DNA from: a virus
Length of the DNA: 24,609 nt
Virus record (IMG/VR): IMGVR_UViG_3300046370_000013
Span: 1 to 24,609 of that record
Direction: 5' to 3' (one strand)
In this document: positions 1,313 through 20,007 of the stretch, piece after piece
Position numbering within the stretch: position 1 is the stretch's first letter
How the letters are laid out: the number at the start of each line of letters is the position of its first letter
The notes under the pieces: model-generated
The model's input: only the letters and a program-made list of their open reading frames with translations
What the model was told of the DNA's origin: nothing
Databases searched by the model: none
Made by a program: the position numbers and the translations under genes

Positions 1313-1739
1313 GCTTATCAATCCTTGTACAATCTTTTGGTTCAATTCTAAAAACAGGCTCTATATCCATAAAGTCTCTAGTAGTCATTGTTCTACCACC
1401 AAATTCAAACTTATATTTCTTTTCAAAATCCCAAACATGATAACAAATACAATCATTACAATTAAAAATAATTATAAATTTACAACCTGATGTTTCACTT
1501 AAAATTTTTGCAGCTTCTATTTTTTTATATGAAATCATAAAAACATATTTCCCAAAGTTGTGATTGAATTTCTTAACCTCACACCAGCTATATTTGTTAT
1601 CTTTCTGTATTAAAAAATCTACAATCCATTTTGTAGGATTTAGCTTTATAAACTTACAATCCCAAAGTTTCTCAAAAATATTTGCTATATATTTTTCATT
1701 CTCTAAATCTTTTGTTGATTCGTATTTAGGTCTGCTCAT
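1305..1739 (-). CDS. PD-(D/E)XK nuclease-like protein
   Basis: This 144-residue protein has the layout of a small PD-(D/E)XK nuclease: an N-terminal helix with acidic residues (E13/E15), then PTKWIVDFLI with Asp41, a hairpin, and WCEVKKF with Glu54 and Lys56. These would be the metal-binding D and ExK pair. A hydrophobic strand (CKFIIIFNC) follows, as in the fold. The C-terminal third is not recognised. It is coupled to the upstream hypothetical gene by a 4-base ATGA overlap. The substrate is unknown; a resolvase, a host-DNA nuclease or a mobile endonuclease are all possible. The call rests on motif spacing alone. Confidence 0.6.
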   Translation of the reverse strand: MSRPKYESTKDLENEKYIANIFEKLWDCKFIKLNPTKWIVDFLIQKDNKYSWCEVKKFNHNFGKYVFMISYKKIEAAKILSETSGCKFIIIFNCNDCICYHVWDFEKKYKFEFGGRTMTTRDFMDIEPVFRIEPKDCTRIDKHV

Positions 1740-2230
1740 TTGTAATCAACTCTCTTGATGTTTACTGATTTATCTAATTTACTTAGCAGTTCTTTTGCCC
1801 TTATAAAATCTTTAGGAATACATCTAAATAATTCCTCAATACTAAATATCATTATGTCTTTCTCATCTTTGTGTATTTTCTCCAATACAGGTTTCTCAGA
1901 ATCAGTATCACAAACCAGTGCTGTTTTATTATCAAAATTAAAACACTTAGCATTAGGTTGTATTTGAATATAACCACTTTCCTCACATTTAATATTTAAT
2001 TGCTCATAAGCTCTTAACATCATTTCAACCATTTGTAGTTGTTTTTTAGGTGCATCATTATGTATAGAATCTTTCAACATCTGCTCTGCTCTACAAAACT
2101 TGATCTCAAACTGAACACCAACCATCTTAAAGATGCGTTTTCGATTACCCCATTTAATACAAGTATCAACCTCATAAAGTCTTAATTCTTTTAATTTATC
2201 TTTTAAAGATTCATTTAAGTATGTATTCAT
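1736..2230 (-). CDS. hypothetical protein
   Basis: This 164-residue protein is not recognised. The N-terminal half is basic and predicted helical (LKDKLKELRLYEVD, then KMVEM/LRAYEQL-type helices), followed by a strand-rich stretch around YIQIQPNAKCFNF and an acidic region, with a KVNIKR-type basic end. It is the first gene after the repeat block downstream of the primase-helicase. Its start has an AGGAAGGA ribosome binding site that is itself part of the GGAAG-rich region. It overlaps the nuclease-like gene by 4 bases. A replication-linked role is only suggested by location. Confidence 0.7.
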   Translation of the reverse strand: MNTYLNESLKDKLKELRLYEVDTCIKWGNRKRIFKMVGVQFEIKFCRAEQMLKDSIHNDAPKKQLQMVEMMLRAYEQLNIKCEESGYIQIQPNAKCFNFDNKTALVCDTDSEKPVLEKIHKDEKDIMIFSIEELFRCIPKDFIRAKELLSKLDKSVNIKRVDYK

Positions 2231-2260
2231 TTCCTTCCTGATGATTTAGTAGGAAGTAAG

Positions 2261-2279
2261 GGAAGTATTACATACTTCC
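2261..2279 (-). repeat. 8-bp hairpin with 3-base loop made of the repeat motif
   Basis: GGAAGTAT (2261-2268) and ATACTTCC (2272-2279) form a perfect inverted repeat around three bases. The arms extend imperfectly outward through further GGAA/TTCC segments. No T-run follows on either strand, so it does not look like an intrinsic terminator. Its right arm includes a copy of the ACTTCCT unit. Confidence 0.7.
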
Positions 2280-2318
2280 TTCCCTTCCTTCCGACCTAAT
2301 TGTTCATATTTAGCTAAA

Positions 2319-2360
2319 ACTTCCTTCAAAACTTCCTACCAAACTTCCTACTAACTTCCT
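2319..2360. repeat. four direct ACTTCCT repeats, 11-12 base spacing
   Basis: Exact ACTTCCT copies begin at 2319, 2331, 2343 and 2354, so the spacings are 12, 12 and 11 bases, about one helical turn. The palindrome TTTAGCTAAA abuts the first copy. The array ends three bases before the primase-helicase stop codon. An outlying copy is at 2274-2280 and an inverted copy at 2251-2257. Same-face spacing fits cooperative protein binding to DNA. Confidence 0.8.
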
Positions 2361-2362
2361 TC

Positions 2363-4306
2363 TTAATCAAACTTTTCTTCCAAATTAGGCTGCACATTCT
2401 TAAATTTAATATGTTGCCATCCAAACTTTTCATGCTTATATACCTGTCCTTTTTCTTTTAAAGCTTTTAAAATTTTGCCAATATTATTAGCATCTATATT
2501 ATCTCCAGCTTTGTTTTTAACAAATCCCTCTAAATCATTTGGCATCAAGAATTGGTCTTGGGGATTCTGATTATCTTTAATATAAGCTACAGTTTCTAAT
2601 GCATTTAATGTTCTATCTTGCATCATAGGTAATTTATCTGATCTCTTAGTTTTAAAATCAATATTAGTCTCTTCTAAGAATCCTGATGTAAGATTTAATC
2701 CCTCACCAATAATCTCAACCTCTTTAAACACAAATGACTTCTCAGACATGCCCTGACCATCTTTATTTAATGTCTGCTCAAAAGATACAAACATTTGTTC
2801 TTCTAGGTTATCGCCTACAGCTTTATCTTCTCTATCTACTTTAAATTCATAATCTAAAGAAGCACCCATAACACTAGAACCTCTACCTCTATCTGAATTG
2901 CCATGACCAGTATGATGAACCAAACATACACAACACTTATAATGTGATATAAGTCCATCTAATTTATTAATAAAATTACCTACATCTTCTGCACTGTTTT
3001 CATTACCAACAAAGTTTCTCTGAAAAGTATCAATGACTATCATGCCTATCTCACCTACTTGTTGAGTCAATGCTTCTATCTCTAACTCTAACATCTTAAA
3101 ATCATCAGGATCATTAACCCTAACTGCTCTATCTGATAGATATAAAGGTACACCAGTTAAATCAAACATACCCTGTTGCCAAGCTGCTAATCTTCTTTTA
3201 ACACCTCTCTGACCCTCTCCACATACATACATGACTGGTTTGCTAAATGATTCATTACCATAAAAACTCTCACCTTTAGCAATAGCAGCAGCCATAGCTA
3301 TAGCAATGAATGACTTACCACTTTTAGGTTTACCAAAGATACACATTAGCGATTCTTTCTCTACAACATCTTTTATCAGCCAATCAGGATTATCTACCTG
3401 TCTTAATACTTCATCAGCTCTTGTAAAAGTAACCATGCCTTTAGGTTTCTTTTCTACACAACCAATAATGTAATCTTCTAAATCTTTAGACTCCTTAAAA
3501 TCACCCCTTATGAAAGCATCATATAAATCATCTTTATCTTTAAATTCTGCTGGTGGTTGAGCTACCTTAACCTTACAACCATTTTTTCTTAACATAGTTC
3601 CTATTTCATTAGCACATTTAATTCCTGCTTCATCATTATCAGGGAATACCCAAACCTCTCTACCAAATATAGGACTCCAATCTGCCTTTTCCCAACTATT
3701 AACCCCACCATGCCAAGTACAAGAATCACCATCATAAATCTCTTCACAACCTCTTAAAGCCTTCTCACCTTCATTTATAATAATAGGTTTATCCTTTGCC
3801 CTATCAGTGTAATAGATAGGAAGAGAGCCTTCAGGTCGCTTCATAGACCAAGAGCCATCATCATTTAAGCTAAAAGGTGCATATTTTTGTTTAATAAAAT
3901 GACCATCAGGAAACCTCATCACCCAAAAGTTTTTTGCATATTGCACTTTAACTATTGCTTGAGAATGAAGCTCCCTCATTTGTACTTTAGAGAATGACCT
4001 AGCATTACTTGTAGCTTTGCTTTTAGGGGGAGCAAAGCCACTGATTAAGGAGTCATTTGAATGTAATGCTAAGTCATAACCAAACTGTTTTAAAACTGTA
4101 TTAACATCTTGATTTAGATGTTTAATTAAATCTATTATACCACCACCAGTATCATCTTCGAAGTTATACCAAGTTCCAGTATCTAGTGATAGAACTAAAG
4201 AACCCTTGCTACCCCATCTAAATTCCTTAGATGAGGTGCTAGTAGGTTCACCTAATAATTGCTTTGCAACTTCAGGTGCAATTCTTTGCCAATCTACTGA
4301 TTGCAT
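2363..4306 (-). CDS. Toprim primase-helicase (RepA/DnaB-type ATPase)
   Basis: This 647-residue replication protein has three parts. Residues 1-80 resemble the N-terminal zinc-binding module of primases (RWGSKGSLVLSL, then FEDDTGGGIIDLI) but have no cysteine. A Toprim domain follows, with NEGEKA (Glu179-Glu181) and the acidic DNDEAG (223-228). The C-terminal half is a RecA-type ATPase of the RepA/AAA_25 kind, with Walker A GKPKSGKS (325-332), Walker B MIVID (422-426) and a HHTGH segment (464-468). By family it should unwind DNA and may make primers. It overlaps the SSB-like gene by one base (TGATG), which supports a shared replication role. The missing cysteines could mean an altered or lost priming function. 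Confidence 0.9.
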   Translation of the reverse strand: MQSVDWQRIAPEVAKQLLGEPTSTSSKEFRWGSKGSLVLSLDTGTWYNFEDDTGGGIIDLIKHLNQDVNTVLKQFGYDLALHSNDSLISGFAPPKSKATSNARSFSKVQMRELHSQAIVKVQYAKNFWVMRFPDGHFIKQKYAPFSLNDDGSWSMKRPEGSLPIYYTDRAKDKPIIINEGEKALRGCEEIYDGDSCTWHGGVNSWEKADWSPIFGREVWVFPDNDEAGIKCANEIGTMLRKNGCKVKVAQPPAEFKDKDDLYDAFIRGDFKESKDLEDYIIGCVEKKPKGMVTFTRADEVLRQVDNPDWLIKDVVEKESLMCIFGKPKSGKSFIAIAMAAAIAKGESFYGNESFSKPVMYVCGEGQRGVKRRLAAWQQGMFDLTGVPLYLSDRAVRVNDPDDFKMLELEIEALTQQVGEIGMIVIDTFQRNFVGNENSAEDVGNFINKLDGLISHYKCCVCLVHHTGHGNSDRGRGSSVMGASLDYEFKVDREDKAVGDNLEEQMFVSFEQTLNKDGQGMSEKSFVFKEVEIIGEGLNLTSGFLEETNIDFKTKRSDKLPMMQDRTLNALETVAYIKDNQNPQDQFLMPNDLEGFVKNKAGDNIDANNIGKILKALKEKGQVYKHEKFGWQHIKFKNVQPNLEEKFD

Positions 4307-5539: not shown

Positions 5540-5646
5540 TAATCTAACTCTTTTAAAATATATATAGCTGCTAATACACTAATAACACCGCCAATAGCAA
5601 CCAAACCAAATATCCCTGCAATAATATATAGAATCCACTCAAGCAT
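5539..5646 (-). CDS. 35-residue single-helix membrane protein
   Basis: The protein is MLEWILYIIAGIFGLVAIGG followed by VISVLAAIYILKELD, almost entirely one hydrophobic helix with an acidic-basic end. It overlaps the gene upstream by 8 bases and shares one base (TAATG) with the resolvase-like gene. These junctions and the clean hydrophobic pattern argue for a real small gene. It should insert in the inner membrane. The function is unknown; small phage membrane proteins can affect host processes or lysis timing, but its position is in the replication operon. Confidence 0.65.
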   Translation of the reverse strand: MLEWILYIIAGIFGLVAIGGVISVLAAIYILKELD

Positions 5647-5951: not shown

Positions 5952-5978
5952 AATGACTCTCCGTTTTTTATATTATAT

Positions 5979-6083
5979 TTAATTTGATAATAAAGCTAGA
6001 ACTTTATTACCTACTTCTCCAAAAACCCTTATACTAGGTTCAAGGGCAAAAGATAAACTCTCCATAAATCTAAATACTCTCAT
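5979..6083 (-). CDS. possible 34-residue leader peptide
   Basis: An ATG at 6083 opens a frame of 34 codons starting MRVFRFMESLSFALEPSIRV and ending GNKVLALLSN. It would be a short hydrophobic, amphipathic peptide. There is only a weak AAGGG upstream and no family is recognised. It occupies most of the gap between the exonuclease and the ribbon-helix-helix gene and spans one arm of the inverted repeat at 6042-6099. It could be a chance frame. Confidence 0.3.
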   Translation of the reverse strand: MRVFRFMESLSFALEPSIRVFGEVGNKVLALLSN

Positions 6084-6099
6084 ATATCTATTTGCCCTT
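6042..6099. repeat. 9-bp inverted repeat flanking a 40-base spacer
   Basis: AAGGGCAAA (6042-6050) and TTTGCCCTT (6091-6099) are perfect inverted copies, separated by 40 AT-rich bases. They lie in the gap after the exonuclease stop and before the ribbon-helix-helix gene. They could be two operator half-sites or a long-loop RNA stem. The rest of the gap holds a TATAAT at about 5973-5978 (minus strand) with no good -35, so a promoter is not claimed. Confidence 0.6.
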
Positions 6100-6101
6100 A
6101 C

Positions 6102-19402: not shown

Positions 19403-20007
19403 TAAGTTATAACCTCTCTAACATCAAATGAAATACTATAAAAACCACTAGCATCTGTTGAATACATAATCTCATTATTTTCAAGATAAACAGTGAAACT
19501 AGGTTTATTTACAGTAACAGCTTCATTATCTGCTAGAGATGCTACTAGGTTAGGTGATATAAGAACAGTTAATGAGCCATCACCCAAAGAATCAATATTT
19601 GATTGAACCATATAAACTTTACTATGATTTGCAAACTTAATTAAATCACCAGCCTTTAAAGCACCTGATGTGCTTGCTGCAAAACCATCTAATTGAATAG
19701 AAGCATCTCCTGATGAATGTGAGCCATTGACTAATATATCTGTTTCAAATCTGCTTGCACCTACATTATCTAGTGGTGCTTGAATAGTAAAGTCCTCAAA
19801 AGAACCTTTTTGTTTTTGTAAAAATGCAAATACTTCTTGAGCTTTTTCTTGTTGTAAGGGTGGCATTTGCACTGTAAAAGAAAAATATTGAGCACCTATT
19901 TGTCTGACTTGTTTTCTACCTGATAAAGTCTGATTAATTAATGTAGGTCTATTATCTTTAAAATTTATGCTTCTAAAATTAGGAGATGTTGGAAATTGTC
20001 CTGACAT
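19402..20007 (-). CDS. minor/distal tail protein, gpM-like position
   Basis: This 201-residue protein starts MSGQFPTSPNFRSINFKDNR and continues with SGRKQVRQIGAQYFSFTVQM, an EVFAFLQKQKGSFEDFTIQ segment, and a C-terminal strand pair ending SFDVREVIT. The strand-rich pattern suits a distal tail ring protein. It follows the tape measure directly, where lambda has gpM. The central part (GDLIKFANHSKVYMVQS) looks like an inserted small beta domain. No named family is recognised with confidence. It is coupled by TAATG to both neighbours. Confidence 0.7.
   Translation of the reverse strand: MSGQFPTSPNFRSINFKDNRPTLINQTLSGRKQVRQIGAQYFSFTVQMPPLQQEKAQEVFAFLQKQKGSFEDFTIQAPLDNVGASRFETDILVNGSHSSGDASIQLDGFAASTSGALKAGDLIKFANHSKVYMVQSNIDSLGDGSLTVLISPNLVASLADNEAVTVNKPSFTVYLENNEIMYSTDASGFYSISFDVREVIT

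Follow-up and report, generated by a model that had tools for sequence, protein, structure and literature searches.

A candidate iteron origin behind a phage primase-helicase gene, and covariation of its repeat motif with the helicase's C-terminal winged-helix domain

Known initiator-origin systems and the phage locus

The C-terminal domains of SaPI Rep and SCCmec Cch2 have been found by experiment to bind iterons directly downstream of their own genes (PMC7581432), and P4 alpha binds repeats at the P4 origin (as cited in PMC4234260). In the ICP1 satellite PLE, the DNA-binding domain of RepA covaries with the ori, and domain swaps give cognate specificity (PMC8263062). For uncultured marine phages, replication origins are nearly all unknown. 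We analysed a 24,609-base record of a marine phage (IMGVR_UViG_3300046370_000013; this whole stretch is called the window hereafter), whose substantive genes lie on the minus strand. It carries a repeat array in a 132-bp gap that separates the stop of a primase-helicase gene (2363) from the point where a 164-aa ORF starts (2230). An origin logic as in SaPI/SCCmec Rep-ori, P4 alpha and ICP1-PLE RepA-ori, built on a different helicase family, appears by analogy to be the best explanation of this locus.

As in SaPI Rep-ori and SCCmec Cch2, the iterons lie directly downstream of the gene for the putative initiator helicase (here except where another gene is inserted), and the Cch2 site likewise has inverted repeats able to form hairpins; the SaPI and SCCmec helicases are DUF927 or D5/Primase_Cterm, whereas the one here is RepA/T7-gp4-like with a fused TOPRIM. 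P4 alpha with its ori/crr unites priming, unwinding and origin binding in one protein and pairs a winged-helix origin-binding domain with repeats, as is proposed here, but we see a single repeat cluster and the P4 alpha helicase part belongs to another family than the RepA-like helicases. If our reading is true, origin binding can be built into a RepA/T7-gp4-like primase-helicase as a domain of its own, a layout that to our knowledge has so far been described mainly for SF3/AAA+ initiators. RSF1010 RepA is the nearest solved helicase, and the RSF1010 origin also has iterons and ssi hairpins (PMC4234260); its RepA, RepB' and RepC are separate, unlike the single chain that here holds primase, helicase and putative iteron binder. 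Among the neighbours scanned in the window, itself a partial genome, there is no separate initiator of the RepC type (20-bp iterons in RSF1010), and none of the 10 replication-region proteins scanned belongs to the HUH Rep family of rolling-circle origins.

In PLE, as here, the DNA-binding domain covaries with an iteron origin while the rest is conserved, and specificity has been swapped repeatedly, but the PLE initiator is a RepA_N protein without a helicase, its iterons are ~30 bp long and its origin is not given as directly behind repA (PMC8263062). pRN1 ORF904 is another primase-helicase with a C-terminal winged helix and has a required stem-loop directly downstream whose structure is kept while its sequence drifts (PMC4234260); it differs in having no iterons and in joining an archaeo-eukaryotic primase to an SF3 helicase. 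Our literature search, which had most subscription journals outside its scope, found no paper on such origins in RepA/TOPRIM phages.

Table 1 Features of the proposed origin and its flanking genes (window positions)
Feature	Position	Strand	Remarks
Non-coding gap, the whole proposed origin	2231-2362	-	132 bp; direct repeats, spacer, hairpin
Iteron 1	2354-2360	-	coding strand AGGAAGT
Iteron 2	2343-2349	-	
Iteron 3	2331-2337	-	
Iteron 4	2319-2325	-	
A+T-rich spacer	2297-2318	-	candidate unwinding element (role inferred); includes non-conserved palindrome TTTAGCTAAA, 2309-2318
Imperfect hairpin	2251-2292	-	motif copies in both orientations; 5' arm 2272-2292, loop 2269-2271, 3' arm 2251-2268
164-aa ORF	1736-2230	-	no Pfam or PHROG match; directly behind array; divergence does not track motif
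Primase-helicase	2363-4306	-	647 aa; TOPRIM-like ~217-261, RepA-like AAA_25 core 294-470, C-terminal winged helix
C-terminal domain	2366-2656	-	residues 551-647; predicted winged helix, proposed iteron binder
Recognition helix (predicted)	2453-2491	-	residues 606-618

The repeat array and its hairpin

Along the minus (coding) strand, the helicase stop is followed by four AGGAAGT copies 11-12 bases apart, by an A+T-rich spacer that ends in TATGAACAATTA and holds a 20-mer with 80% A+T, and by GGAAGGAAGGGAAGGAAGT-ATGTAAT-ACTTCCCTTACTTCC, a hairpin in which the motif recurs both ways round; after it the 164-aa gene starts. Direct reading of the sequence bore out the four ACTTCCT copies that the first-pass annotation had reported (2319, 2331, 2343 and 2354; spacing 12, 12 and 11), together with a fifth (2274) inside a perfect 8-bp hairpin and an inverted copy (2251-2257). 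We confirmed that the array is real. The window holds 12 copies of ACTTCCT where 3.9 would be expected, a number reached in 0 of 100 shuffles. In the gap itself the commonest 6-mer is present 8 times; shuffles average 2.3, and again 0 of 100 came as high. Clustering of GGAAGT within the window is confined to the gap.

Two early points needed correction. The palindrome TTTAGCTAAA noted beside the array is present, but relatives do not conserve it, and we ruled it out as a functional palindrome. A gap does follow the helicase gene, but the operon is not otherwise strictly gapless, as two further stretches of ~100 and ~150 bp in the replication region (5540-5638 and 5952-6101) hold no ORF of at least 40 aa. 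A GC-skew inflection had been put forward as a sign of the origin, and within the window the skew makes no turn at the array.

The hairpin exceeds the 8 bp first described, and the repeat is present in it several times in both orientations. Its perfect apical stem (2261-2279) consists of GGAAGTAT (2261-2268), the loop and ATACTTCC (2272-2279). Across relatives, perfect stems of 7-8 pairs closed by short loops appear again and again in many different sequences; in an alignment of ten loci both sides had changed in 10 of 17 pairs, a degree of covariation matched by 0 of 500 shuffles. Because the stem is kept while its sequence changes, these comparisons suggest that extrusion or single-stranded folding of the hairpin matters, or that the hairpin is a symmetric binding site.

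Motif turnover and the helicase C-terminal domain

Relatives of the helicase, which has 293 viral ones, were collected from viral contigs, by way of the downstream gene, and from bacterial genome contigs. In 91 loci a 105-150 bp gap with repeats and a hairpin separates the helicase gene from the 164-aa gene. The comparison of arrays with protein segments uses the 84 loci that are distinct in gap and C-terminal domain. Near relatives keep GGAAGT almost unchanged, and others carry CAGGGA, GAGGGAAGT, CAAGGAA, CACGGAA, GAGTTAG, GGTTTGG, GGATTGG, TTGGGTG, TGGGGTA, GTGTGTG or GTGTGTAA. Within each of the 84 loci the direct repeats and the hairpin arms share one motif, and both change together. Despite their differing motifs, 10 of 11 array clusters have 10-12 nt as the best self-match lag of their first 62 nt, as had been predicted in the expectation that spacing would be conserved over bases; the exception is the GTGTG-type cluster, with dinucleotide repeats peaking at 8. 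Persistence of the spacing while motif bases change supports the first-pass reading of the array as iterons for a protein that binds one DNA face, in an origin or operator. Each cluster also has an A+T-rich 20-mer (70-95% A+T), and in several the richest 20-mer lies inside the hairpin. Genuine arrays whose motif is shorter or degenerate can escape our tally by a 7-mer test, as did L053, L055 and L172.

The primase-helicase matches AAA_25 (5.6e-35) and Toprim_2 (3.1e-5) and no other family in Pfam, and RSF1010 RepA (1g8y) in a PDB profile search (2.3e-10). An AlphaFold2 model of the whole protein has a TOPRIM plus RecA-like layout near those of Twinkle, T7 gp4 and RSF1010 RepA by Foldseek, and the target-normalised TM of 0.68-0.72 to 1nlf, 1olo and 1g8y indicates that a RepA-type RecA-like helicase core is present. 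The C-terminal domain, predicted alone, forms three helices followed by a two-strand wing with a core pLDDT of ~95. Its structure matches are mostly winged-helix proteins (Z up to 9.7, which for so common a fold speaks for the fold and not for function), the P4 alpha winged-helix domain is not among the matches listed, and Pfam gives only weak winged-helix matches below cut-off.

Motif identity follows a single protein segment, the last ~97 residues of the neighbouring primase-helicase, which make up its C-terminal domain; covariation with this domain is strong. Between the GGAAGT and CAGGGA classes, helicase residues 1-550 are as similar as they are within a class, and residues 551-647 are only 29-40% identical. 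Over the 84 loci, array distance correlates with winged-helix distance at rho 0.76, with a regression weight of 0.60 and 0 of 500 permutations as extreme, a count that is optimistic because the loci share phylogeny. In the joint regression about zero weight falls on the N-terminal part, on the core and on either half of the 164-aa protein, and the linker 226-290 is the only other segment to add any (0.24). The covariation holds for the direct repeats alone, for the hairpin alone and for 6-mers. Where cores are at least 85% identical, a winged helix below 45% identity usually comes with a different array (median array distance ~0.8), and one above 45% with the same motif (0.23 or less); some GTGTG- and GGTTT-type pairs depart from this, having similar arrays despite a winged-helix identity of 22-41%. 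Reciprocal pairs, with different cores and the same winged helix, do not occur in the sample.

Binders named earlier were the HTH or ribbon-helix-helix proteins; the evidence indicates the winged-helix domain of the primase-helicase instead. The 164-aa protein was considered as a specificity factor and ruled out, as it does not covary with the motif (rho 0.27 and 0.05); where it is at least 90% identical, arrays still differ if the winged helix differs. Its ORF is strongly conserved in all relatives. The protein has no Pfam or PHROG match, and we found no relatives of it among named phages.

Class-to-class differences sit in the predicted recognition helix. In five loci, residue 607 is Asn with CAAGGAA and Asp with CACGGAA, that is, with A or C before GGAA, and preferences of Asn for adenine and of Asp for cytosine are known contacts. 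No fully clean code links residue 607 to the base: G replaces A in one Asn locus, A and C both occur in class A2, and the other motif classes obey no one simple rule for this residue. We take the pairing as a lead; some of the recognition code may be legible one residue at a time.

Candidate mechanism, rival explanations and further loci

In our assessment the gap is probably an iteron replication origin, with repeats bound by the winged helix that ends the primase-helicase, the product of the gene just upstream. From sequence features (the repeats, their spacing, compensatory changes in the hairpin, concerted motif change and motif-domain covariation) we infer origin activity, physical binding, a priming site and an order of events in which the C-terminal winged helix would bind the 7-bp iterons; since these are spaced by roughly a helical turn, several helicase subunits would assemble on one face of the DNA. 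Strand opening would follow as the helicase opens the A+T-rich spacer and hairpin and loads there, with the TOPRIM part priming synthesis.

The first-pass annotation had left open an origin or an operator. Iterons frequently double as operators (RepE, pi), and repeats spaced by about a helical turn would suit any cooperative binder, so that a regulator, or the helicase as autoregulator, might act on the repeats to control downstream transcription. We consider this improbable and the origin better supported: a promoter and terminator scan of the gap found none inside, the motif tracks the helicase winged helix and not the other genes tested, compensatory changes conserve the hairpin, and arrays accompany the helicase gene in unrelated gene orders, such as those of Alteromonas phage PB15 and Idiomarinaceae phage 1N2-2. 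Still less probable is that the gap acts once transcribed, as leader or translational control element for the 164-aa gene, with AGGAAGT copies serving as Shine-Dalgarno decoys or a protein binding the hairpin. The gap RNA does fold better than shuffles (z -2.45), the hairpin covaries, and all copies lie in the direction of transcription of the genes. However, the DNA strand folds about equally well relative to shuffles (z -2.28), an Rfam scan of the window gave no match, and turn-length periodicity has no rationale in RNA. The Shine-Dalgarno role raised earlier is unlikely because the TTGGGTG, GGTTTGG and GTGTGTG classes are not Shine-Dalgarno-like.

Because the winged-helix segment adjoins the array, joint inheritance could add to the correlation, and in a mosaic helicase gene such as this one, motif and domain could vary together as neighbours in one recombination block, without recognition. 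No covariation is seen for the 164-aa gene, which flanks the array equally closely at its other end, and hitchhiking of this kind leaves the concerted change of all copies in array and hairpin unexplained; we give it very little weight as the whole account. Under the preferred reading, recognition of the iterons by the winged helix, a more tentative possibility is a modular replication-specificity system in which a ~100-aa winged-helix cassette and a ~130-bp origin are exchanged or retuned together, with at least 12 mutually exclusive "addresses". By analogy with ICP1-PLE, the drive for switching addresses may come from competition, incompatibility or origin-directed nucleases.

Similar arrays occur outside the family. 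The helicase of Roseobacter phage CRP-406 is 32% identical over half the protein, and its gene is directly followed by GGCTGGAAA repeats with one inverted copy, and by a hairpin. In the region L295:161-487 this array (about 380-480) lies under the annotated ORF CRP406_2, which may be mis-annotated in its first part. PB15 (GGTTCA; array at about 19,740-19,990), 1N2-2 (CGGTACA) and Salicola phage CGphi29 (GGGGACA) have the same arrangement after the helicase gene, and all four isolate proteins contain AAA_25 and Toprim domains. A GC-skew minimum of PB15 near the helicase gene (22,457) was rejected as an origin marker, as it coincides with a switch of gene direction. Many bacterial genome contigs carry similar arrays, among them Lysobacter (GTCCGGT), Thioalkalivibrio (ACCGGAC) and Salipiger (CGGGACA). 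RepA-like helicases do not all share the pattern: two Manatee Spring phage records (L293 and L294) have inverted repeats only, with no direct-repeat array, and in about half of the distant bacterial-genome loci the repeats are not above background.

If the reading holds, sequence alone would suffice to call the origin in hundreds of genomes and to name a putative binder, and the four isolated phages that share the pattern would be usable test systems. Natural pairs of winged-helix domain and target site on matching backbones would make a DNA-recognition code and initiator-origin evolution directly testable.

In four loci (L270, L245, L277 and L241) a phage DNA methyltransferase-like gene lies between the helicase stop and the array, and repeats and hairpin are intact with the class motif retained. 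A 929-bp stretch with an HNH-endonuclease-like reading frame (L069:2247-3176) adjoins the array between the helicase and the 164-aa gene in another locus. Because repeats and hairpin stay intact despite inserted genes, the array is a separate unit and not the tail of the helicase gene. The inserted methyltransferase may modify or protect the origin; by N-terminal sequence these genes are of two different kinds. The HNH-like frame resembles origin-directed or homing nucleases. One 65.7-kb contig (IMGVR_UViG_3300050343_000089) has two helicase-array-164-aa loci ~34 kb apart (L115 and L116), as would result from a concatemer of two related phages or from faulty assembly. The relative L172 lies in a contig from the single-cell genome AG-390-L11 of a SAR86 bacterium, which hints at SAR86 as possible hosts for the phage group.
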